This document shows, piece by piece, positions 1,141 through 18,775 of a stretch of 26,164 nucleotides of DNA (the stretch's first letter is position 1; every line of letters begins with the position of its first letter). The DNA is from a virus, in the IMG/VR virus record IMGVR_UViG_3300012012_001804, positions 18,767 to 44,930 of that record, one strand, 5' to 3'. The translations under genes were made by a program, and so were the position numbers. The notes beneath the pieces are model-generated. The model had not been told where the DNA came from, made no database searches, and was given only the letters and a program-made list of their open reading frames with translations.

Positions 1141-1629
1141 TTAGAAGTTCAATACACAGTAATCTGGTTGAACTGTCATAGTAATGTTTACAGCAGTATC
1201 AACAGTATCCCAGTTGTAATCACCAAAGTTAGCTTCTGTAATTAAAGCACCTTTGATAATCCATTCTGATACGATATCACCCACAGGACCTAATACATCA
1301 AAAGTTAAATCTTTCTTGTAGAAATCCGAGTAACCATCTCTACCAGTTACTGATTCGTGATGTAAACGTACCCATTCCATTACTGCTTGAGCGCCTGAAG
1401 GAGTAATAGGGTCAAACAATGTGAATTGGATAGTACCCCATGTTGTTTTACCTTTAACAAAGCGTTGTACGTTTATATGGTTTAAAGGAACAGTACCTTG
1501 GGATAATGTGACTGCACCAACACCTTTGATTTCATACGCTGGTATACCGTCTATATACATGATAAAGCGGTTTGCCTGTTTTGGTTCAAAGGCTGTGAAA
1601 AATATTTCGTTTGGATTTAATACTGCCAT
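1141..1629 (-). CDS. 19: Tail tube protein gp19
   Basis: A 162-residue protein, essentially the length of T4 gp19 (163). It forms the hexameric rings of the inner tail tube. It starts MAVLNPNEIFFTAFEPKQANRF and continues with a YIDGIPAYEIKGVG segment and a beta-rich C-terminal half (TFDVLGPVGDIVSEWIIKGA), the pattern of the T4 tube and VgrG-related fold. It lies immediately downstream of the sheath gene, the canonical 18-19 order. A promoter-like motif lies 21 nt upstream of the ATG and a terminator follows the stop, so it may be made as a separate abundant transcript, which suits a high-copy virion protein. Confidence 0.92.
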   Translation of the reverse strand: MAVLNPNEIFFTAFEPKQANRFIMYIDGIPAYEIKGVGAVTLSQGTVPLNHINVQRFVKGKTTWGTIQFTLFDPITPSGAQAVMEWVRLHHESVTGRDGYSDFYKKDLTFDVLGPVGDIVSEWIIKGALITEANFGDYNWDTVDTAVNITMTVQPDYCVLNF

Positions 1630-1650
1630 TTTATTTATCTATTTTATTTT

Positions 1651-1662
1651 GTTATAAATATT
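1651..1662 (-). promoter_or_regulatory. Late-promoter-like motif copy 3
   Basis: An exact AATATTTATAAC on the coding strand, 21 nt upstream of the gp19 ATG, in the short gap after the gp18 stop codon. Confidence 0.6.
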
Positions 1663-1676
1663 CTATCTTTAAAAAA

Positions 1677-3425
1677 TTATTCAAAAGAAACTCCAGTTGG
1701 TAAAATGTTGAAGTTTAAGTAAATGAATTCAGCTGTTTTGGTTGGTTGTAAGTAAATAGCACCTACTAACTGATTTCTATCAATTACATCAGGAGTGTTA
1801 TTTGAATCATCCATTACTACTCTGAAGGCATATAAACCTTGTCTCTGTTGAACTGATTCCAAATATGGATTAACTTGGTTTAAGAAGCTAGTACGAGTAG
1901 CTATTGTGTTTTGTTCAAACACCAAGTTTTGAGCAACTTGAGAGATATAAGATTTAAGAGCAATTAACAATCTTCTTACATTCACACGATCAAGTGCAGA
2001 TGCTTTAGTTTGTAATGTTTTCTGACCATATACTACAACTCCGTTTCCAGGGAATGTTGCAATTGGGTTAACTTTATTTTGGTATAAAGTATCGCGGTTA
2101 GCTTGAGATAATTTCTTTTCAGCTCTTACTACTGTGCTTAATCCACCTCTGTTAATACCAGCAGGAGCAAACCAAGGTTCTGAAACTGAATCGTTAAATG
2201 CATACACACCACCAATCATTGTTGAGGCAGGTACCCATACTAATTGAGCAGAATCAGGATCAATTACTTGAACCCAAGGCCAGTAAGCAGCAGCATATGA
2301 AGTATTTTTAGCATTTGCTTGAGTAGTTACTGATGAAATACTTGAGCTAAAAGGTACTAAATCGCTTATGTAGATATTATCACCTCTATTTTCAGTGTTT
2401 GAAATGATTGAAGTTACTTGAGAAGAACCAAGTGGAGCTTCAGAAGCAAACAAACCAGGAGTCATTAATGCATTGAATCTATAATCATCTTGGTTTGCTA
2501 ATAAAGCAATCATGTTGTCATAGCTTGAACTTAAAACACCCTGAATGTTTGTTACACCAGAAACTATATTGCTATAGAATTTAGCATTATTTCCAAATAA
2601 ATTACCAGTAGCTCCTACAAAAGAACCACTTGCATTTCTAGGAATAGAACCAGTTAAATTAGATTTAGCTATACCATTGTTATCAAAATAGAAAGGAGTG
2701 GCTGTTGGTACACTAGATACATAAACGTATCTTGAGGCATTAGGATAAGTACCTAAAACTTCAATTTGGTTATCGGCTGCATTGTATTGTCTGTATTGAT
2801 CACCAATTACTCTTGCTACGTAGTTAGGAGCTGTAGGATCCATTGATAAGTTGGTCCATGTTTCTAATACTGTAGGAGTAAGAGTAGTATCACTACCTTG
2901 TCTAATTAATAATGAGAAAGTACCTGATGCTGTATCAGCATTAGCAATTTGCCATCTGATGTTATCTGCTGAACCTGAAGCTAAAGCACCTGCTGAATCT
3001 AAGGAACTTGAACTGTTCATAATAGTTCCTTGAGAAATGGTGTTTAATACTAAAGATTGAGAAGTATTAAAGTTAAGAATAGATACTCCACCACCATTAG
3101 GACCAGTTACAGAAGCGGTTGCTGTAGTAGCTGAAGTGAATGAACCACTTACTACTCTTGCTACCAATAATGTTTCACCACCGTTTGCAAAATAATTGTA
3201 AGCGGCAATAGAAGTGAAATAAGTATAAACTTGGCTGCTACTTAAAAAAGTAGTACCAAATTTATTCTGATAATCACTGTAAGAGGTAACAATTGTAGGA
3301 ACTTCTACAGGACCTTTAACTGTAGGACCAATGATAGCGGCACCAACGGTAACTGGTTGTTGGGATACAAATGACTGGTCGTTTTCTAATGCTAGTACGC
3401 CAGGTGATATTAATGTTTCTGCCAT
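1677..3425 (-). CDS. 18: Contractile tail sheath protein gp18
   Basis: A 582-residue protein (T4 gp18 is 659). It begins MAETLISPGVLALENDQSF; the Ser-Pro-Gly-Val motif close to the N-terminus is typical of contractile sheath proteins and contributes to inter-subunit strand exchange. Next come an AAIIGPTVKGPVEVP segment, a long Ser/Thr/Gly-rich variable domain (about residues 110-330), and a conserved C-terminal part containing AYWPWVQVIDPDSAQ and VNVRRLLIALKSYI. The C-terminal region is the most conserved part of sheath proteins and forms the inner sheath contact layer. The tail tube gene follows directly. A promoter-like motif lies 28 nt before the ATG. Confidence 0.93.
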   Translation of the reverse strand: MAETLISPGVLALENDQSFVSQQPVTVGAAIIGPTVKGPVEVPTIVTSYSDYQNKFGTTFLSSSQVYTYFTSIAAYNYFANGGETLLVARVVSGSFTSATTATASVTGPNGGGVSILNFNTSQSLVLNTISQGTIMNSSSSLDSAGALASGSADNIRWQIANADTASGTFSLLIRQGSDTTLTPTVLETWTNLSMDPTAPNYVARVIGDQYRQYNAADNQIEVLGTYPNASRYVYVSSVPTATPFYFDNNGIAKSNLTGSIPRNASGSFVGATGNLFGNNAKFYSNIVSGVTNIQGVLSSSYDNMIALLANQDDYRFNALMTPGLFASEAPLGSSQVTSIISNTENRGDNIYISDLVPFSSSISSVTTQANAKNTSYAAAYWPWVQVIDPDSAQLVWVPASTMIGGVYAFNDSVSEPWFAPAGINRGGLSTVVRAEKKLSQANRDTLYQNKVNPIATFPGNGVVVYGQKTLQTKASALDRVNVRRLLIALKSYISQVAQNLVFEQNTIATRTSFLNQVNPYLESVQQRQGLYAFRVVMDDSNNTPDVIDRNQLVGAIYLQPTKTAEFIYLNFNILPTGVSFE

Positions 3426-3453
3426 GTTCTTTAAATTATAATTGTTTTATTCT

Positions 3454-3465
3454 ATGATAAATATG
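3454..3465 (-). promoter_or_regulatory. Late-promoter-like motif copy 4 (variant)
   Basis: The coding strand reads CATATTTATCAT. The core ATATTTAT is kept but the flank differs from the consensus. It lies 28 nt before the gp18 ATG, the longest spacing of the set. Confidence 0.45.
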
Positions 3466-3482
3466 GCAGGGAATCTCAAAAA

Positions 3483-3734
3483 TTAGTCTACAGAAGTGAT
3501 TTCTCCTGTTTCTATATTTACTGAGATTTTTCCATATTTGTTTTGCATCATTGTACCTAATTGTGCTTCTTCTGCTTTTAAAGCCGAAAGACTTTCAACT
3601 AGGGTTTCTTTTACCAATTCTAGCTCTTGAATTTGGAGTTCAATGTATCCAAAATCGGCCATAATTTGATCTCTTTTTGCGCGTAAGTTTGTTAATTCTT
3701 GTAACTCTTCTTGTGTTAAAACTTGTTTTTCCAT
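3483..3734 (-). CDS. Small coiled-coil protein, function unknown
   Basis: An 83-residue protein. Residues 5-65 are strongly alpha-helical and rich in Gln, Glu, Leu and Lys with heptad-like hydrophobic spacing (TQEELQELTNLRAKRDQI, then ELQIQELELVKETLVESL), so a coiled coil is likely. The tail is KYGKISVNIETGEI. From memory, similar small proteins with a Gln-Glu-Glu-Leu start and a KYG...TGE end are common near structural genes of T4-like phages, but I know of no assigned function. It starts two bases after the stop of the preceding fibre-like gene, so the pair are probably co-transcribed. Confidence 0.75.
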   Translation of the reverse strand: MEKQVLTQEELQELTNLRAKRDQIMADFGYIELQIQELELVKETLVESLSALKAEEAQLGTMMQNKYGKISVNIETGEITSVD

Positions 3735-3736
3735 GT

Positions 3737-4435
3737 TTATGTATAAATTATATGATAATAAAAATCTGTGTTTGCGTTTTGGGATATAAAAGTTAGAGAA
3801 GGTCCTGCTAATCCAGCTACTGTAACTAAATCATTTGCTGCACTTCCTGTTACTCCTATTGTTACAAAGCAATTTTGTCCTAAAGTTTTTCCTGCTAAAG
3901 CAGGTAATGCAACTATTGCTGTTGGAGTAGGTGAAGCATCTGTTTTTGTTGCTCCTGCTATAAAATTTAAATTAGCTGTAACAGGTGTACTTCCACTTGG
4001 TACTGCTGTACCAACTAAATTAGTGGCTGAATTAGCAGATACTACGTAACTTGCTGTTGTTGCTAATGAAGCTGTTCCTACTAAATTTGTAACATACAAT
4101 GTATTGTTTGAAGGTTGATATTTTAAATCATCGTTATCAAATCTAAAAGTAGCATTGTTTGAAGAAGTACTATTAAATAATGCTATAGCTAATGGGGAAG
4201 TTGCTACAGAAGAAGTAATATAGGCACTATCAGCAAAAGTAGCATCTATTGCTCTTGAAGATGATACTGCATTTGAAATACTACCTGTTATAATAGAACC
4301 TGTGGTATTTAATGAACCGGAGATTGTTAAATCATAAGCATAAGCACCTGTTAAGGCATCAATACTTTGGGTAACGTGCCATGCCTCAATGGTTTGGGTT
4401 GTTGCTATACCTGTTTTCGAGAGATTTAAAGCCAT
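3737..4435 (-). CDS. Fibre-like virion protein with ASY repeats
   Basis: A 232-residue protein of low-complexity Ser/Thr/Ala/Gly composition. It has ITGSLNTTGSIITGS and GTASLATTASYVVSANSA repeats like those in the large fibre-like protein at 9411-11489. The C-terminal part (about residues 150-232, with TANLNFIAGATK and ALPALAGKTLGQNCFVTIGVTG) looks like a beta-structured head domain. This is probably a tail-fibre or virion-surface component, judged by composition and neighbours; no catalytic motif is visible. A promoter-like motif ends five bases before the ATG, leaving no room for a Shine-Dalgarno site. Confidence 0.7.
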   Translation of the reverse strand: MALNLSKTGIATTQTIEAWHVTQSIDALTGAYAYDLTISGSLNTTGSIITGSISNAVSSSRAIDATFADSAYITSSVATSPLAIALFNSTSSNNATFRFDNDDLKYQPSNNTLYVTNLVGTASLATTASYVVSANSATNLVGTAVPSGSTPVTANLNFIAGATKTDASPTPTAIVALPALAGKTLGQNCFVTIGVTGSAANDLVTVAGLAGPSLTFISQNANTDFYYHIIYT

Positions 4436-4440
4436 GTTTT

Positions 4441-4452
4441 GTTATAAATATT
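4441..4452 (-). promoter_or_regulatory. Late-promoter-like motif copy 5
   Basis: An exact AATATTTATAAC on the coding strand, only five bases before the ATG of the 3737-4435 gene. A transcript starting here would be leaderless or nearly so. Confidence 0.55.
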
Positions 4453-4462
4453 ATTAAATTAA

Positions 4463-4898
4463 TTAAGATACACTGATTAAAATACCGTTGTCAAAAGTTA
4501 AGGTTTGAAATCCAGGAGGATTTCCAGCAATAGGAACAGGACCTGTATATCCAACAGGTTTTAAATCTGTTCCAGCACTTGCACAACCCTATTGGACTTA
4601 AATTTGTTCCTACACTTGCACTTCCTGATGGCATCTCAAGGTAATACCCATTAGTTGATCCACCTTGTTCAAATATTCTAAGTCTATTTTGATAAACATC
4701 TATAGTTACACCATTAGGTATAGTTGTATTAGTAGCAGGAGTACTAAGAAAAATTTCTCCTCCTTCATCTCCAGCTTGATACATTGATTTTAGGTTGGTT
4801 CGTGCTACAACGTCTCCTGTTGCTGTTACCGAACCGGTTATTGTGGTTGTACCACTTTCAACAATGAGACCATTTCTTATTATAAATTCGTTTGGCAT
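4463..4898 (-). pseudogene. Fibre-like protein gene interrupted by a frameshift
   Basis: The intact frame (4491-4898) gives 135 residues starting MPNEFIIRNGLIVESGTTT, a typical fibre N-terminus with ITGSVTATGDV repeats. After residue 105 it degenerates into an implausible Cys/Trp-rich tail. Moving +1 near 4583-4590 restores a credible tail, ASAGTDLKPVGYTGPVPIAG..., ending ILISVS at a TAA at 4463-4465. The breakpoint lies between two imperfect copies of a roughly 32-bp repeat 37 bp apart, a spacing that is not a multiple of three. A repeat-associated indel, an assembly error or deliberate recoding could explain it. The start has a GAAAGGT Shine-Dalgarno-like site five bases upstream and a promoter-like motif 25 nt upstream. 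Confidence 0.65.
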
Positions 4899-4903
4899 AA
4901 GTT

Positions 4904-4910
4904 ACCTTTC
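4904..4910 (-). promoter_or_regulatory. Shine-Dalgarno-like site for the 4463-4898 gene
   Basis: GAAAGGT on the coding strand, five bases before the ATG at 4898. It supports this start; the promoter-like motif lies about 14 nt further upstream. Confidence 0.5.
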
Positions 4911-4923
4911 ACTTTCCAGGTTT

Positions 4924-4935
4924 GTTATAAATATT
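4924..4935 (-). promoter_or_regulatory. Late-promoter-like motif copy 6
   Basis: An exact AATATTTATAAC on the coding strand, 25 nt before the ATG at 4898, between that gene and the stop of the LamG gene at 4937. Confidence 0.6.
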
Positions 4936-4936
4936 A

Positions 4937-5653
4937 TTAGATTCCAAAACGTGCTCGAGTGGCTTGGAAGTTTTGGTTGATTTCTGTTGAGGAGAGGGTT
5001 CGGTTATATAATATATAATTATACCATGAACCTTTATATGTATTCCTAATATTATAACTTGTTCCCGTGTAAGTTATAGAACCTGGGTTGTTATTTCCTG
5101 ATAATCCAGCACTTAAGGTTCCATTAACGTATAAAGATAGTACTCCATTAGTAGCAACAAAACTAATAATATAGATATTATTTCCATTTGTTATTACTGA
5201 ATTTTGGGCTGAATAAAGATAAGTGTTATCAGCTCCTATTGAGATAAATACTGTGTTAGCAACATTAATAGCTGGTCGATTATCTAATCCTAAATAAAAT
5301 CCATTTCTCCCACTATAACTAAATTGAAAATCACTTATTGTACTAAAATTTCCTGAAGTTATAGTGTTAGGTTTTATTGTTATTTGTAATGTAAAATTAT
5401 TAGTTATTAAAGCACTAGTAGAAGAACCTAAAAGAGTATCATCAGCACCATCAAACACAATTGAACCTCCATTTGCAGAATTGTAAGTTGGTCCATTGGT
5501 TAAAGTACCGTTATTACCAAATCCTGAAATATCTTTCCAGGTTGTTCCAGCAGTTGGTGAATAAAAAGAGTTAGGTGAACCAGCATCTAAATACAATACC
5601 AGTCCATCTTTAACTATTGCAGGACCATCCCAACCACCACTTACTGTACTCAT
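4937..5653 (-). CDS. LamG-domain (concanavalin A-like) virion adhesin, copy A
   Basis: A 238-residue, single-domain protein. The N-terminal signature GLVLYLDAGSPNSF, the WKDISGFGNNGTLTNGP segment and GSIVFDGADD, plus the C-terminal ILYNRTLSSTEINQNF...RFGI, mark it as a member of the laminin-G/concanavalin A-like jelly-roll family (LamG_3 type). Such domains usually bind glycans or other cell-surface ligands. There is no signal peptide or transmembrane segment, as expected for a phage virion protein. This is the most divergent of the six paralogues: its ends are recognisable but carry many substitutions (ends RFGI rather than RFGL). An AGGAG site lies six bases before the ATG. The adhesin role is inferred. 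Confidence 0.8.
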   Translation of the reverse strand: MSTVSGGWDGPAIVKDGLVLYLDAGSPNSFYSPTAGTTWKDISGFGNNGTLTNGPTYNSANGGSIVFDGADDTLLGSSTSALITNNFTLQITIKPNTITSGNFSTISDFQFSYSGRNGFYLGLDNRPAINVANTVFISIGADNTYLYSAQNSVITNGNNIYIISFVATNGVLSLYVNGTLSAGLSGNNNPGSITYTGTSYNIRNTYKGSWYNYILYNRTLSSTEINQNFQATRARFGI

Positions 5654-5654
5654 A

Positions 5655-5945
5655 TTAAACTCCTAAAGGAAATGGGTTTGGATCTGTCCACTCAGGGGTA
5701 GATAAAATTTGTAAAATTTCTTCATAGGTGTAAGGACCTTCCTTTGTAGTTAAAGCCTCTACTGATGAAGGAATAATAGGTCCATCCCATTTTACAAATG
5801 TTTTTAATCCGTCAACAGATTTTCTTACTGTGTCGATTGATGTTTCTAAAACTTGAGTAAAGTCTATTTGATCTAATTCGGTAACGGAGAAAATCATAAA
5901 TTCTCTGTTGTCGTACTCTTGTAATTCTAATGTTGTTTCTTCCAT
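5655..5945 (-). CDS. Hypothetical acidic protein embedded in the LamG array
   Basis: A 96-residue acidic protein (MEETTLELQEYDNREFMIFSV) that I do not recognise. It has no LamG, repeat or membrane features. The middle (about residues 25-50) is predicted helical, and the C-terminus is Pro-rich (TPEWTDPNPFPLG). It sits between LamG copies A and B. A promoter-like motif ends six bases before its ATG, and its stop is one base from the next ATG, so it should be co-transcribed with copy A. A chaperone or attachment factor for the LamG proteins is possible but speculative. Confidence 0.65.
   Translation of the reverse strand: MEETTLELQEYDNREFMIFSVTELDQIDFTQVLETSIDTVRKSVDGLKTFVKWDGPIIPSSVEALTTKEGPYTYEEILQILSTPEWTDPNPFPLGV
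5660..5664 (-). promoter_or_regulatory. Shine-Dalgarno site for LamG copy A
   Basis: AGGAG on the coding strand, six bases before the ATG at 5653, inside the last codons of the upstream gene. Clear SD sites are uncommon in this window and appear mostly where genes abut and no promoter-like motif intervenes. Confidence 0.6.
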
Positions 5946-5951
5946 TGTTTT

Positions 5952-5963
5952 ATTATAAATATT
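5952..5963 (-). promoter_or_regulatory. Late-promoter-like motif copy 7
   Basis: The coding strand reads AATATTTATAAT, six bases before the ATG at 5945. It fills the entire gap after the TAA stop of the upstream LamG gene. Confidence 0.55.
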
Positions 5964-6641
5964 TTAAAGTCCAAATCTGGATTTTTGAGCATTGTAGTTT
6001 TGGAGGATTTCTGTGGAGGAGAGGGCGCGGTTGTAGATTTGTACGTTTGCTATATTACCATTAAAAACACTACTACCACCTGCTGAACCTATATAATTAA
6101 CATTAGTACTGTTATTTACCCAGTTTCCTGTACTTCCTAAATTCCATGTAAGAGTTTGGTTTATACTATCTACATAGATTTTATAATCATTAGTTTTCAT
6201 AACAACAACAGCATAGTGCCATAAACCATCTCCAAAACTTGTTGTTGTTAAGGGTTGATTAGTTCCATCATAACCTCCTAAAACATTATTAGCTCCACTT
6301 CCTACATATCCCATACTAAAATTTCTAAAATTTGAAGTTGAAGCATTAATAAGTCTTCTATTATCGTTGTTAGCCGATGTTTTGAACCACAAAGCATAAG
6401 TTGTATCTCCACTGGTTGATACTGTTAAATCAACACGATCATCCACCCCATCAAAAACAATACTTCCTCCATTCCCACTATTAAACGTAGGACCATTGGT
6501 TAATGTTCCATTGTTTCTATTTCCACTAATATCATTCCAAGCTGTTCCTGTACCGGGATAAGAATCTTTTTTGGCTGCATCCAAATCTAGGACTAAACCA
6601 TTTGTTACTATTCCACCGTAATATGCTATTCTGCCTGCCAT
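5964..6641 (-). CDS. LamG-domain virion adhesin, copy B
   Basis: A 225-residue LamG/concanavalin A-like protein with the shared N-terminal block GLVLDLDAAKKDSYPGTG, then NDISGNRNNGTLTNGP and GSIVFDGVDDRV, and the C-terminal block VQIYNRALSSTEILQNYNAQ ending RFGL. The centre (about residues 70-195) is unrelated to most siblings and probably carries the ligand-binding face. Its 3'-terminal DNA is close to that of copy E (8050-8736), so B and E form one end-type while C and D form another. It starts three bases after the stop of copy C. An adhesin or receptor-binding role is inferred from the fold and location. Confidence 0.82.
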   Translation of the reverse strand: MAGRIAYYGGIVTNGLVLDLDAAKKDSYPGTGTAWNDISGNRNNGTLTNGPTFNSGNGGSIVFDGVDDRVDLTVSTSGDTTYALWFKTSANNDNRRLINASTSNFRNFSMGYVGSGANNVLGGYDGTNQPLTTTSFGDGLWHYAVVVMKTNDYKIYVDSINQTLTWNLGSTGNWVNNSTNVNYIGSAGGSSVFNGNIANVQIYNRALSSTEILQNYNAQKSRFGL

Positions 6642-6644
6642 TGT

Positions 6645-7373
6645 TTATAATCCGAATCGTGTTTTTGTTGCGTTGTAGTTTTGGTTGATTTCTGTGGAGG
6701 AGAGGGCTCGGTTGTAGATCTGGGTATTATAAACATTACCATTCCATCCTAATGTTGGAGTAGTAGCACCAGTTTTATTACTGGCTATCCAAAAAGGTGT
6801 TGTTGCTACTGTAGCAGTATTAGTTGTAGTACTATATGTGTTATTATCTAATACTCCATTAACATACATAAATATTTTTTGTGATGCATCTTTCCCAAAA
6901 GTTATATTATATATTGTGTTTCTTAAAAAGGTTGTTGTTGATATTGATGCATATCCAGAACCAACCCCATTATTGGTTACTACTCCTTGGACTTTAAAAT
7001 AAGCATATAATTTATTGTTAGTATCTATAAAAAACCCAATATCGTCCTGAGAAGCATTGAAATTTTTAATACTAAATAAATCACCTCTATTACTTCCAGC
7101 CATTCTAACCCAGTAGTTTGCTGTAAATTGATTATTTGATAATATTAAAGATGATATATTTCCACAATTTACATAATCATCAACCCCATCAAAAACAATA
7201 CTACCACCATTCCCAGAATTAAACGTAGGACCATTGGTTAAAGTTCCTGTGTTATTATTTCCTGATAAATCAAACCAAGAGGTACCACTGCCTGGATATG
7301 AATTTTTATCGGCAGCATCTAATTCTAATACTAACCCATCTTGTACTATATCTGGTCCACCTGATATTCCCAT
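6645..7373 (-). CDS. LamG-domain virion adhesin, copy C
   Basis: A 242-residue LamG/concanavalin A-like protein. The N-terminal block contains GLVLELDAADKNSYPGSG, SWFDLSGNNNTGTLTNGP and GSIVFDGVDDYVNCG; the C-terminal block is TQIYNRALSSTEINQNYN, ending RFGL. About 75 bp at its 3' end and an 87-bp block in its 5' part (7185-7271) are almost identical to copy D, although the roughly 450 bp between them are unrelated. That pattern points to recombination or gene conversion through conserved ends. One base separates it from copy D upstream, so the two are co-transcribed. It probably binds surface glycans as part of the virion, by inference. Confidence 0.82.
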   Translation of the reverse strand: MGISGGPDIVQDGLVLELDAADKNSYPGSGTSWFDLSGNNNTGTLTNGPTFNSGNGGSIVFDGVDDYVNCGNISSLILSNNQFTANYWVRMAGSNRGDLFSIKNFNASQDDIGFFIDTNNKLYAYFKVQGVVTNNGVGSGYASISTTTFLRNTIYNITFGKDASQKIFMYVNGVLDNNTYSTTTNTATVATTPFWIASNKTGATTPTLGWNGNVYNTQIYNRALSSTEINQNYNATKTRFGL

Positions 7374-7374
7374 A

Positions 7375-8037
7375 TTATAATCCGAATCGTGTTTTTGTTG
7401 CGTTGTAGTTTTGGTTGATTTCTGTGGAGGAGAGTGCTCGGTTGTAGATTGATACTTGTGCTATATTACCTTGCCAAAAACTACTAAGAGGAATGTTGGT
7501 ATTATCATAATAAGCACCCAAACCTGTACCTGTTGAAGAAGATAATGTAGTTGCTCTAGTTCCTAAGGAAGTGCCATTTACAAAGCCTTCGTATTCTGTT
7601 GAGGAATTAATTCTTATACCTAATAAAAACCATAAATTTACAGTTAAGGTTACTCCTGAAATATAACTAGAATCTGATCCTACTCTAAGATATACATCGG
7701 TATTATTAACACCTAAATATACACGATCTGGATCTCTGTGGGAATATGCTAATCTTAACCCCGAGGATACCGAAGTATTTTTTACCCATATCAAATATGT
7801 TTTTCCATCACTTGTATTGATATTAGGTAAGTTTACTGCATCATCTACTCCATCAAAAACAATACTACCACCATTCCCAGAATTAAACGTAGGACCATTG
7901 GTTAAAGTTCCTGTGTTATTATTTCCTGATAAATCTCTCCAAGAGGTACCACTGCCTGGATATGAATTTCTATCGGCAGCATCTAGTGCCAATACTAATC
8001 CGTTTGTTATTGTGGTTGGTCCGTTTGAAAAACTCAT
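7375..8037 (-). CDS. LamG-domain virion adhesin, copy D
   Basis: A 220-residue LamG/concanavalin A-like protein with GLVLALDAADRNSYPGSG, SWRDLSGNNNTGTLTNGP and GSIVFDGVDDAVNLP at the N-terminal end, and VSIYNRALSSTEINQNYN ending RFGL at the C-terminal end. The end blocks match copy C nearly base for base; the central region (about residues 70-190, with HRDPDRVYLGVNNTDVYLRV) differs. A promoter-like motif ends two bases before the ATG, so the message would be nearly leaderless. This motif may drive copies D, C and B as one transcript, as no other motif separates them. Confidence 0.82.
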   Translation of the reverse strand: MSFSNGPTTITNGLVLALDAADRNSYPGSGTSWRDLSGNNNTGTLTNGPTFNSGNGGSIVFDGVDDAVNLPNINTSDGKTYLIWVKNTSVSSGLRLAYSHRDPDRVYLGVNNTDVYLRVGSDSSYISGVTLTVNLWFLLGIRINSSTEYEGFVNGTSLGTRATTLSSSTGTGLGAYYDNTNIPLSSFWQGNIAQVSIYNRALSSTEINQNYNATKTRFGL

Positions 8038-8039
8038 TT

Positions 8040-8051
8040 GTTATAAATATT
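8040..8051 (-). promoter_or_regulatory. Late-promoter-like motif copy 8
   Basis: An exact AATATTTATAAC on the coding strand, two bases before the ATG at 8037 and overlapping the TAA stop of the upstream LamG gene. It is the tightest spacing in the set, shared with copy 9. Confidence 0.55.
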
Positions 8052-8736
8052 AAAGTCCAAATCTGGATTTTTGGGCATTGTAGTTTTGGAGGATTTCTGT
8101 TGAGGAGAGAGCGCGGTTGTAGATTTGCATGTTTGCAATTCTTCCATTAAAAAATTGTGATGATGGTGCTTCTTGTTCATTTCCTATTATTCCATTATAT
8201 GATGTAGCTCCTTCAGCAGAAAATCCTGTTGATGTTGATCCTATCTGGTTTCCATTTTTGTATAAAGCAGCAGTAGCGGCAGTAGCATTATACACTATTC
8301 CTACTTGAATCCAAGTGTTATTAGTTAAACTTGCTGCTGTTTCTATTAAACTGCCTCCTGTATGGTAATATGTTAAGTCTCCGGCTGATATTCTGTTAGT
8401 TGTAAAACCAAAACCACCTCCACTTAAAGATCTTGTTCCACATATACCTGCTCTTAAAGTTGTTGTTAAATAGATAAAACAAAGTATTGTTTTTGTTCCA
8501 ACAGGTGATATAGAAGAAGTAAAAGAACTTACGTAATCATCAACCCCATCAAAAACAATCGAACCTCCATTCCCACTATTGAAAGTCGGTCCATTAGTTA
8601 AAGTACCATTGTTACCATTTCCCGACATGTCTCTCCAGGTTGTTCCTGAACCAGGATAAGAATTTGGGTCGGCTGCATTTAGTGCTAAAACTAAACCGTC
8701 TGTAACTATTTTTCCGAATGCGTATTGGGTTGCCAT
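8050..8736 (-). CDS. LamG-domain virion adhesin, copy E
   Basis: A 228-residue LamG/concanavalin A-like protein. Shared blocks: GLVLALNAADPNSYPGSG, WRDMSGNGNNGTLTNGP and GSIVFDGVDDYVSS at the N-terminal end, and MQIYNRALSSTEILQNYNAQ ending RFGL at the C-terminal end. Its 3' end closely matches copy B. The central region (about residues 70-200) is distinct. It starts six bases after the stop of copy F with an A-rich leader and no clear SD site, so it is presumably translated from the same message as F. A surface-ligand-binding role is inferred from the fold. Confidence 0.82.
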   Translation of the reverse strand: MATQYAFGKIVTDGLVLALNAADPNSYPGSGTTWRDMSGNGNNGTLTNGPTFNSGNGGSIVFDGVDDYVSSFTSSISPVGTKTILCFIYLTTTLRAGICGTRSLSGGGFGFTTNRISAGDLTYYHTGGSLIETAASLTNNTWIQVGIVYNATAATAALYKNGNQIGSTSTGFSAEGATSYNGIIGNEQEAPSSQFFNGRIANMQIYNRALSSTEILQNYNAQKSRFGL

Positions 8737-8742
8737 ATTGTT

Positions 8743-9411
8743 TTATAATCCGAATCTGCCTTTGGTTGCGTTGTAGTTTTGGGTGATTTCTTGGGAGGAG
8801 AGTGCTCGGTTGTAAACTTGAACTAAAGCTATATTAGCATCTGAGTTATCAAGAGTATCATATTCTGCTCCTATTATAAGATTGGAAGTATTTCCTGAAA
8901 TAGTACCTGTTTGGGAATATGTGGTTGTACTAATAGTAGTGTTTAAATAAGCTCTCATTGTTTGTCCATCCCACGTTGCTGTATATAATTTCCATCCCGG
9001 TGTGGGATTTATTCCAATATTCCCACCAATTTGGGAACTTGTAAATGTAAAAAATTGTAAAGTTCCTGCTACTTCTCTAAGAATATAACATAGTCCACCG
9101 GGGTTTTTCCATTTTCCTACAACTTTTATATTTTTTGTTTTTTTATTTACCCAAGCAGATATTGTAAGTCCTGTCATTTGATTTAAAGTAGAACTACTAG
9201 GTGCACTAACATAATCATCCGATCCATCAAAAACAATCGAACCTAAGTTAGCCGAATTAAAAGTAGGTCCATTAGTTAATGTTCCATTGTTTCCACTTCT
9301 ACTTAAGTCACTCCATGTTGTTCCTGAACCAGGATAAGATCTTGTATTGGCAGCATCTAAATACAAAACCAATCCATTTGTAATTATACGAGGGCTGTAA
9401 CCAAAAGCCAT
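8743..9411 (-). CDS. LamG-domain virion adhesin, copy F
   Basis: A 222-residue LamG/concanavalin A-like protein, first in transcription order of the array. It has GLVLYLDAANTRSYPGSG, WSDLSRSGNNGTLTNGP and GSIVFDGSDDYVSAP at the N-terminal end, and VQVYNRALSSQEITQNYN ending RFGL at the C-terminal end. The centre contains TISAWVNKKTKNIKVVGKW, WKLYTATWDGQTMRAYLN and NLIIGAEY, matching the canonical LamG_3 pattern, so this copy best supports the family call. Its ATG overlaps the TAA of the large fibre gene (TAATG), and an AAGGAG site lies six bases upstream, indicating coupled expression with that fibre. Confidence 0.85.
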   Translation of the reverse strand: MAFGYSPRIITNGLVLYLDAANTRSYPGSGTTWSDLSRSGNNGTLTNGPTFNSANLGSIVFDGSDDYVSAPSSSTLNQMTGLTISAWVNKKTKNIKVVGKWKNPGGLCYILREVAGTLQFFTFTSSQIGGNIGINPTPGWKLYTATWDGQTMRAYLNTTISTTTYSQTGTISGNTSNLIIGAEYDTLDNSDANIALVQVYNRALSSQEITQNYNATKGRFGL

Positions 9412-11489
9412 TATATACTCCTTATTATTGTTTTAATTGTCCAAGAACCTGTTGCTGAAGAACCTGTTAATACCATATTTGATCCTGATACTATAACTGT
9501 AAAATTTATTGCCGAAGTACTACCAAAAGATGTTGTAGTTGTTTCTGTAAAGTTTACTGAAGAACCACTCCAAATAGCCATAATTTGACCTGCTCTTGCA
9601 TTAGAGCCTGATCTTACTGTGTAATCATAAAATGCTCCATCGTAAGAGGATGTTGGTAAACTGTAAACAACAAACGAACCTGAATTGGTTTGTGTTATTT
9701 TGTTTGTTGTGTAAAGGGCTGGAGCCAAATAGTTACCCATATTTGTGGTACTATCTGAAAATACTTCCAAGATTGGTAAACCTGAAATATCGTTTACACT
9801 GAATAAGGAACCTGTTAGTGAATCTGTTACTGAGAATAATTCACCTTGAGAACCTTGAACAGTGAAAATTGGTTGTGTAGAGCCTGATCCTATTACTGTT
9901 AAAATAGTTCCTGAAATTGCTGTGTTGAAAGAACCTGAAAGACGGGTTTGTCCTGCAACTTGTAGAGAACCTGTTAATGTGCTGACATCGGTTGAAGCGT
10001 TTCCTATTTTTACTCCTGTATTTGTAACTTGGAATTCAACTAAAGAGCCTGTTATTACTGTAAGAGAGCCTGTTATTACTACGTTTTGATTTAAAGGATT
10101 TACAAAAGATGCAGTTGAGGCAAATGAGGAACTTACAGCATTTAACACGTAAGAAGCTGTTGTTGCAAAAGAAGCACTAACAGCATTTAACACGTAAGAG
10201 GATGTTGTTGCTAATGAAGCAGTTCCTAATAAAGAGCCTGTAAATGAAGTAGCAATAACACTACCTGTTACAGTAACACTACCACTAACATCTAAAATAC
10301 CATTTAAAGCAGATTCTTTACCAATTCCAACTTTAGATTGAGAAACAAATAATGCTCTTTGACCAAACTGTCCTATTCTAACAGTGTTATCTGAAAATGC
10401 CTCTATTACAGGTAAACCTGAAATTGTATTTACTGAGAATAAAGAACCGGAAAGTGTATCTGTAATTTGGAATAAATTACCTAAACTACCATTTACTGTT
10501 AAAACAGTTGAACCTGATCCTTGTAAAGTGGCTGCTACTGTTGAGGCACTTACTGTAAGAGAGCCTGTTACTGTAGAGGGTCCAATAACACTTAAACTTC
10601 CTGTTATTATTGCTGAGCCTGTAAATGGGAAAGATGAAGCATTTGCAACATAAGAGGCAGTAGTTGCAAATGAAGCACTAACAGCATTTAATACGTAAGA
10701 GGCTGTTGTTGCATAAGAGGCACTTGTTGCTTGAGAGGAACTAACTGCCCAACTTGAAGTACCAAATAAAGAACCTGTTATTGTTGGGGCATTTAACGAA
10801 CCTGTTACTAAAACAGGACCTGTTTTTATATCTACTGTACCCCATAGAGTTTGGGTATCATTTGAAGCATCACCAAATTGGTTTGAACCAGATGAATATA
10901 TTACAGATGCTGATTCTATATTAACATTTAAATAAGAAATAGAGGCTGTACCATTTATAGATAAATTACCTGTTATGGTAAGATTTTGATTTAAATTATT
11001 TAAATAAGAAGCGGTAGAGGCAAACGATGCACTAACAGCGTTTAATACATAAGAGGCAGTTGTTGCAAATGATGAACTAGTTGCTATTGAGGCAGTAGAG
11101 GCAAACGAGGAACTTAAAGCATTTGTAGCATACGAAGCACTTACAGCATTAGACGAACTAACAGCAAAAGAAGATGTTAGTGCATATGAAGAACTTAATG
11201 CATAAGAAGAACTAACAGCAAAAGAGGAAGTTAGGGAAGAGGGGGAGTAAGAGGCTGTTAAAGCATATGAAGAACTAACAGCAAAAGAAGATGTTAGTGC
11301 ATATGAAGAACTTACAGCATATGAGGAACTTATTGCAAAAGAGGAAGAATTAAATTCTTTTACAACACCCGCAGAACCACTTCCGTAATATAATTTACCA
11401 TCAAAAACGTTAATTGCTAATTCTCCTTGTACTAGAGTTGAAGGTTTACTTCCAGAATTTGCACTATTTTTGGTTATTATTGTAGACAT
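9411..11489 (-). CDS. Large repeat-rich tail-fibre-like protein
   Basis: A 692-residue protein. The N-terminus MSTIITKNSANSGSKPSTL...GELAINVFDGKLYYG is a common phage fibre start (SKP...L..GELAIN...DGKLYY). Residues of about 50-165 are short repeats of the SSYALTSSFAVSS type. Two copies of a larger module follow, containing GSLFSVN-ISGLPVIEAFSD (about residues 340-365) and GSLFSVNDISGLPILEVFSD (about 545-570), separated by ITGSL/TASYVLNAVSASF repeats. The C-terminal roughly 90 residues (YSLPTSSYDGAFYDYTVRSG onward) look like a receptor-end or trimer head domain. It is probably a fibrous virion appendage, and the LamG genes immediately downstream may encode partners. A promoter-like motif ends two bases before the ATG. 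Confidence 0.8.
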   Translation of the reverse strand: MSTIITKNSANSGSKPSTLVQGELAINVFDGKLYYGSGSAGVVKEFNSSSFAISSSYAVSSSYALTSSFAVSSSYALTASYSPSSLTSSFAVSSSYALSSSYALTSSFAVSSSNAVSASYATNALSSSFASTASIATSSSFATTASYVLNAVSASFASTASYLNNLNQNLTITGNLSINGTASISYLNVNIESASVIYSSGSNQFGDASNDTQTLWGTVDIKTGPVLVTGSLNAPTITGSLFGTSSWAVSSSQATSASYATTASYVLNAVSASFATTASYVANASSFPFTGSAIITGSLSVIGPSTVTGSLTVSASTVAATLQGSGSTVLTVNGSLGNLFQITDTLSGSLFSVNTISGLPVIEAFSDNTVRIGQFGQRALFVSQSKVGIGKESALNGILDVSGSVTVTGSVIATSFTGSLLGTASLATTSSYVLNAVSASFATTASYVLNAVSSSFASTASFVNPLNQNVVITGSLTVITGSLVEFQVTNTGVKIGNASTDVSTLTGSLQVAGQTRLSGSFNTAISGTILTVIGSGSTQPIFTVQGSQGELFSVTDSLTGSLFSVNDISGLPILEVFSDSTTNMGNYLAPALYTTNKITQTNSGSFVVYSLPTSSYDGAFYDYTVRSGSNARAGQIMAIWSGSSVNFTETTTTSFGSTSAINFTVIVSGSNMVLTGSSATGSWTIKTIIRSI
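9418..9423 (-). promoter_or_regulatory. Shine-Dalgarno site for LamG copy F
   Basis: AAGGAG on the coding strand, six bases before the ATG at 9411, within the last codons of the fibre gene. It is the strongest SD site seen in the window. Confidence 0.65.
11155..11314 (-). repeat. Direct repeat inside the fibre gene
   Basis: An identical 43-bp stretch occurs at 11155-11197 and 11272-11314, 117 bp (39 codons) apart and in frame. It encodes part of the SSYALTSSFAVSS repeat tract. Further degenerate copies of the same unit flank it. The in-frame period means expansion or contraction would change fibre length without breaking the gene. Confidence 0.8.
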
Positions 11490-11491
11490 TT

Positions 11492-11503
11492 GTTATAAAT
11501 ATT
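11492..11503 (-). promoter_or_regulatory. Late-promoter-like motif copy 9
   Basis: An exact AATATTTATAAC on the coding strand, two bases before the ATG of the large fibre gene and overlapping the TAA stop of the preceding gene. Confidence 0.55.
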
Positions 11504-11867
11504 AAAAAGTTCCTCCATCTATTATACCAACAAAATAAGAAGCAGTCACAGCTCCTGTAACTTTAATTGAACCTGTCACTATTAAACTACCTGTTATTTC
11601 TGCTGAACCTGTATATGGAAAAGAGGAAGCGTTTGCTACGTAGGAGGCTGTTAAAGCATAAGATGAACTTGTTGCATAATCTGCAAAGGAAGCTGTTCCG
11701 AATAAACTTCCTGTAAAACTACCTGTAAAAGATCCTGTAGGAGATGCTCCTGAACCAGATATTACAAATAAAGAACCTGTACCATCATAAACATTAACTC
11801 CATCAGTTTGAAGGAGTCTTTGATAGGTGTAGCTTATTGCTGATCCTGATAGGTTTAATGATGGCAT
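11502..11867 (-). CDS. Short fibre-like protein with ASY/TGS repeats
   Basis: A 121-residue Ser/Gly/Thr-rich protein. It contains ASPTGSFTGSFTGSLFGTASFA, then ATSSSYALTASYVANASSFPYTGS and ITGSLIVTGSIKVTGAV, and ends DGGTF. The repeats match the neighbouring large fibre, which contains the same ASYVANASSFPFTGSA segment. The GGTF end is shared with the short protein at 12886-13218. It is probably a small virion or fibre-base component. It starts 11 bases after the previous stop with an A-rich leader. Confidence 0.65.
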   Translation of the reverse strand: MPSLNLSGSAISYTYQRLLQTDGVNVYDGTGSLFVISGSGASPTGSFTGSFTGSLFGTASFADYATSSSYALTASYVANASSFPYTGSAEITGSLIVTGSIKVTGAVTASYFVGIIDGGTF

Positions 11868-12885: not shown

Positions 12886-13218
12886 TTAAAACGTACCCCC
12901 ATTAATGTATGAGGCTGTTTGAGCATAAGAGGCACTTACAACTGTTAAAGTAGATAAATTTACTAAAAAAGTACTTCCATCTCCTTTAGTGAATGTTAGA
13001 TTAGGATTTGAAAAAGAGGCAGTAACCAATAATGAACCTGTGTTGGTTGATCCTCCTCCCCCTGAAAAGTCTAATGTTAGATTATTGAAATCTCCTATTG
13101 TAACTCCTGCTCCGGAACCTGTTATAACTAATTCATTTAGATAAGTAGTTAATAAAACACTTCCACTATAAACCTTTAAAAAGGTTAAACCAGTATTAGA
13201 GTTATTTAATATAGCCAT
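12886..13218 (-). CDS. Short fibre-like protein with Gly-rich linker
   Basis: A 110-residue protein with a beta-rich N-terminal part (LTFLKVYSGSVLLTTYLNEL), a GGGGSTNTGSLLVTASF linker at about residues 53-69, and a C-terminal VVSASYAQTASYINGGTF. The ASY repeats and GGTF end link it to the protein at 11502-11867 and to the large fibre, suggesting one family of fibre or fibre-adaptor subunits. It begins seven bases after the stop of the gp15-like gene and opens the fibre island. Confidence 0.6.
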   Translation of the reverse strand: MAILNNSNTGLTFLKVYSGSVLLTTYLNELVITGSGAGVTIGDFNNLTLDFSGGGGSTNTGSLLVTASFSNPNLTFTKGDGSTFLVNLSTLTVVSASYAQTASYINGGTF

Positions 13219-18749: not shown

Positions 18750-18775
18750 AAAATTTATTTTTATAACTGTGTTTC

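Follow-up and report, generated by a model that had tools for sequence, protein, structure and literature searches.

A phage array of small LamG genes with constant ends and centres probably exchanged as cassettes

How can neighboring genes stay alike at both ends and have almost nothing in common in between? This question is raised by six LamG genes in a 26-kb stretch of viral DNA (the window; 26,164 nucleotides, positions 18,767 to 44,930 of the 44.9-kb record IMGVR_UViG_3300012012_001804). We propose that the conserved end blocks are homology arms and that the centres are exchangeable cassettes, passed between copies and between phages. This view is well supported, because synonymous sites differ between ends and centres, a sister phage has the same ends around other centres, centre identities at orthologous positions are bimodal, and some centres have travelled.

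Ends and centres of the six copies

The six genes are intact open reading frames (ORFs) of 220-242 codons, all co-oriented on the minus strand within positions 4937-9411, and were named C1 to C6 by order of transcription (Table 1). All six exceed the gathering cut-off of PF13385 (Laminin_G_3; 27.6 bits over the whole protein) with scores of 30.7-63.2 bits, and a search of the phage's own genome gave exactly six LamG matches. As had been predicted from the letters alone, the proteins have in common an N-terminal block (GLVL...SYPGSG...NNGTLTNGP...GSIVFDG.DD) and a C-terminal block (YNRALSS.EI.QN...RFGL/I), on which ORFs and alignment agree. These blocks comprise about 67 and about 23 residues, and the invariant columns of the six-protein alignment fall nearly all within the first ~72 and the last ~23 positions. 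Amino acid identity among the copies is 61-83% in the N blocks and 65-100% in the C blocks, and 11-27% in the centres, which span 131-167 residues by the boundary used here. The count of six in the original prediction is right, but the row is not unbroken: C5 and C6 are separated by an ORF for a 96-residue protein, hereafter the companion, which belongs to the unit. Similarly, the centres had been called unrelated, which is true of their sequence but not of their fold, since the Pfam match spans them and the structure predicted for C4 is a single jelly roll.

At the DNA level, the ends of C3 and C4 are 87% (N block) and 99% (C block) identical. A codon comparison of this pair gave synonymous differences of 0.20 in the N block, 0.06 in the C block and 0.57 (saturated) in the centre, where amino acid identity is 22%. 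The C blocks of C2 and C5 are 96% identical in nucleotides, with a synonymous difference of 0.17 versus 0.53 in the centre. Because synonymous sites have changed little in these ends and are saturated in the centres, the similarity of the ends must reflect more than selection on protein sequence. The breakpoints are abrupt: measured in 15-codon steps, identity falls from ~100% to ~45% at FDG.DD and rises again at YNRALSS. C3 and C4 also have an exact run of 86 nucleotides in common, so that misassembly is possible for this pair alone; the comparisons between phages given below are independent of it.

The same pattern might be sought in ordinary old paralogues, whose ends would be the slowly evolving core of LamG_3 and whose remainder would have drifted with no special recombination. 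The end motifs do resemble the general LamG_3 signature, the ratio of nonsynonymous to synonymous changes (dN/dS) in the N blocks is well below 1 (0.18-0.53), and most copy pairs are near saturation at synonymous sites of the N block too. However, old paralogues should show equal synonymous divergence of ends and centres within a pair; this prediction was tested and failed, as the little-changed synonymous sites in the C3/C4 ends and the C2/C5 C block make clear. We therefore regard plain old paralogy as very improbable. The low N-block dN/dS and the six intact ORFs would be consistent with selection on function.

Replacement of centres between phages

A sister phage (contig IMGVR_UViG_3300032296_003307; L120, identical with L196) is 88% identical to the window in nucleotides over 5 kb downstream of the array and 92% over the end of the fibre-like gene upstream, and its companion protein is 100% identical. 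It has three LamG copies versus six in the window. Its first copy combines the N block of C1 with terminal sequence collinear with that of C4, its second has the N block of C5 at its start and a C5-type end, and both ends of its third align collinearly with those of C6. The match to the window stops ~200-215 nucleotides past the start codon and resumes ~40-110 nucleotides before the stop codon. The ends are thus orthologous at 83-92% nucleotide identity, with all three centres at about chance identity, a combination that also argues against old paralogues.

Replacement is not confined to this pair of phages. From 105 distinct companion sites we obtained 55 comparisons of LamG genes at orthologous positions, for which the companions had to be at least 80% identical in nucleotides. 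Amino acid identity of the centres was below 0.5 in 48 pairs, between 0.5 and 0.8 in none and at least 0.8 in seven, and the gap in this bimodal distribution indicates replacement rather than gradual divergence. Mean nucleotide identity in the 48 pairs with replaced centres is 0.73 in the N block, 0.46 in the centre and 0.76 in the C block. The converse was also observed. L139 and L186 each have one copy in which ~150 codons of the centre are ~99% identical in nucleotides, flanked by N blocks of 75-86% and C blocks of down to 72% identity, and blastn found no match between the two outside the arrays (>120 nucleotides, E 1e-8). The pattern recurs in L014 and L122 with lower values (centre 94% in amino acids, N block 74%, C block 78%), although these two phages have some flanking sequence in common. 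A complete copy occupies position 2 in one member of the pair L267/L268 but position 1 in its counterpart, and the flanks and the N block stay put.

Gene conversion offers another explanation, in which the ends are homogenised while point mutations, favored by diversifying selection, drive the centres apart in situ, with no transfer of cassettes. Concerted evolution of this kind predicts ends that are more alike within than between loci at synonymous sites, and this is what we found: among 218 distinct single-domain proteins, the within-locus synonymous identity of the ends exceeded all 500 label shuffles. The centres were slightly above their own shuffles, by a smaller excess than the ends, which is expected from common codon use. 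Nevertheless, in-place divergence does not account for the absence of intermediate identities at orthologous positions, for near-identical centres between phages with dissimilar ends (L139/L186 and L014/L122), or for the whole copy that changes position (L267/L268), and we consider it improbable. A lectin-like fold with a variable and a constant part would also suit the target of a diversity-generating retroelement, hypermutated by reverse transcriptase, but the differences seen here are whole centres, including length changes, and not scattered adenine sites. RVT_1 is absent from eight large related records (103-373 kb, possibly fragments), the window's own 44.9-kb record not being among those searched; with no reverse transcriptase in these relatives we rejected the retroelement, to which we give practically no credence. 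The interchangeable modules of the original prediction can now be put more strongly, since centres are swapped within arrays as well as from phage to phage and the breakpoints fall at the end blocks; that the ends would also serve as recombination arms is a point it had not made.

Copy number was compared in 48 loci that extend 7 kb or more beyond a homologous tail sheath on its upstream side; some of these loci are overlapping views of one contig. LamG genes upstream of the sheath range from 0 (in 20 loci) to 9. Six fixed, orthologous copies in related phages, which had been named as an observation that would speak against interchangeable modules, were not seen; copies come and go, and centres are replaced. 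The longest array seen has eleven single LamG genes (L174, IMGVR_UViG_3300042484_002676, about 1563-8035 and beyond). In three loci whose sheath is 81-82% identical to that of the window (L046, L056 and L057), LamG domains are fused in ~800-residue proteins with companion copies between them, and split and fused forms therefore coexist among the relatives. Where relatives lack LamG genes, the slot of the array is occupied by a tail-spike-like gene or by glycosyltransferases. Two of these relatives (L060 and L067) have two or three glycosyltransferase genes, one heptosyltransferase-like, near the tail sheath.

Putative adhesins and their companion

The AlphaFold2 (AF2) model of C4, with a predicted local distance difference test score (pLDDT) of 87.5, is a single jelly roll with a helix at its end, and identifies this copy as a concanavalin-like jelly-roll fold. 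It matches solved jelly rolls with Z-scores of about 21-22.5 and root-mean-square deviations of 2.1-3.1 over 192-212 residues. The closest solved folds come from clostridial neurotoxin binding domains (their jelly-roll part), from the related NTNH proteins and from domain 4 of the arabinanase AbnA, a sugar-binding domain solved in complex with sugar (Z-score 22). Judging from the model, these likenesses would lie in a common fold and not in function. Profile matches include pentraxins, the LamG domain of neurexin and a sialidase carbohydrate-binding module. The end of the chain is distinctive. Among 391 distinct LamG proteins, the motif QN[YF]..RFG was found 225 times, each time within six residues of the C-terminus and never internally, even in the 66 longer proteins. 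Because of this invariable placement, the tail may have a task, attachment for example, that depends on its terminal position. It is also the only observation in favor of the common docking face that, in the original prediction, the conserved ends could form.

The single LamG proteins of Flavobacterium phage immuto are annotated as 'structural protein', and a homologue in Synechococcus phage S-PM2 as 'virion structural protein'. Protein 176 of S-PM2 has two LamG domains of the array's end type; the product of its neighbor gene, S-PM2d175, is described as a component of a putative adhesin, and one of its alleles underwent a selective sweep in three chemostats (PMC9910659). Considering the structural annotation of homologues, the location in a tail module, the spike-like replacements and the fast exchange of centres, the array proteins are likely to recognise hosts or glycans. 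Receptor or glycan binding, as originally predicted, would fit the fold, the neighboring tail genes and the annotation alike.

Alternatively, the modules may be swapped but serve as decoration proteins, in the manner of Hoc, with environmental glycans (on particles or in biofilm matrix) as ligands rather than host receptors. The fold is a general one for the binding of glycans or proteins, arrays of up to 11 copies (L174) are larger than most receptor-binding sets, and 20 of the 48 sheath-bearing loci have no LamG gene upstream of the sheath. The array nevertheless lies beside fibre and tail genes, and a tail-spike-like gene or glycosyltransferases in its slot are what a host-recognition slot would have. 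We think decoration unlikely, though a genuine contender.

The explanation that we prefer, and hold to be probable as a whole, starts from stand-alone jelly-roll LamG proteins of concanavalin type, encoded in the tail block of a T4-like phage, with two constant ends and a different centre in each copy. As the comparisons show, ends have been shared recently between copies and phages and centres replaced as whole cassettes, so that homologous recombination between end blocks swaps the centres and adds or drops copies. The proteins would be displayed on the virion as adhesins; their common ends, above all the C-terminal tail, would fix each variant to the same place, and the companion would perhaps help to attach it. 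The swapped centre would carry the ligand-binding surface, so that a swap would change the surface glycan or receptor bound. Within this explanation, cassette exchange of lectin centres is well supported and the adhesin role likely. A wider version remains tentative, and we are rather more inclined to doubt it than to accept it: a common exchange system between phages, in which the ends double as attachment ends and homology arms, any centre of the aquatic pool fits, and the companion assembles or attaches every variant, whatever its centre.

Several points weigh against the preferred explanation. No donor was found for any of the window's six centres, whose best matches outside near-identical strains are ~30-40% identical over most of their length. 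The pairs at orthologous positions are not independent, as some loci recur and comparisons of near-identical strains are included. No proteomics paper was found behind the 'structural protein' label in immuto. Repeats may have given rise to chimeric joins in metagenome contigs; a simple misjoin is unlikely for L139 and L186, because the end blocks around their common centre differ enough.

The companion had not been mentioned in the original prediction. It is adjacent to LamG genes at 80 of 86 sites, and because these loci were fetched with the companion itself, the association is not a by-product of the LamG search. One scan gave about 200 contig matches to its family. It often directly precedes the last copy or closes the array, and homologues adjoin LamG genes in immuto and Synechococcus phage S-SKS1. 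The companion of the window has no Pfam or PHROG match at E 0.01, and no Pfam match even at E 5. A fold search with its AF2 model (pLDDT 81, predicted template modelling score 0.64) found no PDB match of useful significance, and BFVD matches to uncharacterised viral proteins only. On these comparisons it may constitute a new family. A cellular origin was considered and rejected: a single-protein query of genome contigs gave one weak match, on one contig of a metagenome-assembled genome, so the companion appears essentially phage-borne. From its position and conservation, we would guess that it is an attachment or folding factor for the LamG proteins.

The array is located in a tail/neck gene block, between the gene of a repetitive fibre-like protein and the tail sheath gene (Table 1). 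The window also has a PhoH-like gene and a head-tail-adaptor-like protein, and its gene order is close to that of immuto. Together with the sheath match, these features indicate a T4-like phage, with Immutovirus apparently the nearest among cultured phages.

Table 1. Positions of the LamG copies, their end blocks and neighboring features in the window
Feature	Position	Strand	Basis
LamG copy C1, 222 residues, first transcribed	8743..9411	-	PF13385, 59.0 bits
LamG copy C2, 228 residues	8050..8736	-	PF13385, 63.2 bits
LamG copy C3, 220 residues; ends almost identical to C4 in DNA	7375..8037	-	PF13385; end/centre comparison
LamG copy C4, 242 residues; structure predicted	6645..7373	-	PF13385; AF2 pLDDT 87.5
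LamG copy C5, 225 residues; C block close to that of C2	5964..6641	-	PF13385
LamG copy C6, 238 residues, last; identical protein in near-identical strain L036/L117	4937..5653	-	PF13385
Companion, 96 residues, uncharacterised, partner of LamG arrays	5655..5945	-	between C5 and C6
Left homology arm, as exemplified by the N block of C4 (codons 1-66)	7176..7373	-	direct repeats D1/D4; breakpoints
N-block equivalents in the other copies	about 9214-9411, 8536-8736, 7840-8037, 6438-6641, 5438-5653	-	as for C4
Right homology arm, as exemplified by the C block of C4 (about 24 codons)	6645..6716	-	direct repeats D7; breakpoints
C-block equivalents in the other copies	8743-8814, 8050-8121, 7375-7446, 5964-6035, 4937-5008	-	as for C4
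Tail sheath (gp18-like), downstream anchor of the module	1677..3425	-	53% identical to annotated immuto tail sheath
Repetitive fibre-like protein, 692 residues, directly upstream of the array	9411..11489	-	end conserved in sister phage (92% of nucleotides); flank of exchange region

The proteins encoded at 9411-11489, 11502-11867, 3737-4435 and 12886-13218 have short repeats of the TASYV / GSLFGTAS type in common, with many direct DNA repeats between their genes and no PHROG match; they resemble members of a single repetitive, fibre-like family. The ORF at 4491-4898 (minus strand) has ~37 extra nucleotides near its 3' end relative to the close relatives L036 and L196. The resulting frame shift gives Cys/Trp-rich final residues that differ from those of its counterparts, and could reflect a strain insertion or duplication, or an assembly error.

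Comparison with known systems

The swapping of tail-fibre and tail-spike tips among phages is already known, and the array is a variant of such adhesin shuffling. What sets it apart is the compact single-domain unit with constant ends in multi-copy arrays, of which the middle is traded even between phages with nothing else nearby in common. Hundreds of arrays amount to a natural experiment on how the concanavalin fold tolerates a replaced middle, and offer a way to predict the part that decides ligand choice; the role of the conserved companion is testable in the cultured Flavobacterium phage. Our searches of open-licence papers turned up none on this arrangement. A survey of jumbo phages reports Laminin G3 domains with tail fibres and other virion components, and the available part of its text mentions neither arrays nor exchange (PMC7824862).

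Immuto (Immutovirus, MW353176) has homologues of the array genes in the same place upstream of its tail sheath: two single LamG genes that carry the array's end blocks (immuto35A_219 and _220), followed by a 458-residue LamG gene and a companion homologue. Unlike the window, it has two single copies and one longer one, with no recent sharing of ends between the two single copies. S-SKS1 and S-PM2 have LamG domains of the same end type, as C-terminal domains of long multi-LamG proteins rather than as stand-alone genes; in S-SKS1 a companion homologue (60% identical) adjoins a 960-residue LamG protein.

Among known adhesin systems, the tail spikes of Ackermannviridae, as far as described in the available part of the source (PMC8432352), resemble the array in that one phage has several receptor-binding paralogues among which modules are swapped. 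However, the proteins there are tail spikes, at most four in any one phage, whereas the array consists of six (elsewhere up to 11) single LamG domains of 220-240 residues, in which both ends are constant, the middle of one domain is swapped, and a small conserved companion is present. The T-even long-tail-fibre adhesin gp38 (PMC12529663) likewise has constant, glycine-rich motifs that bound hypervariable receptor-binding segments. Compared by description, gp38 is a single gene with several short segments, whereas the array has separate genes of LamG fold with one large variable centre each.

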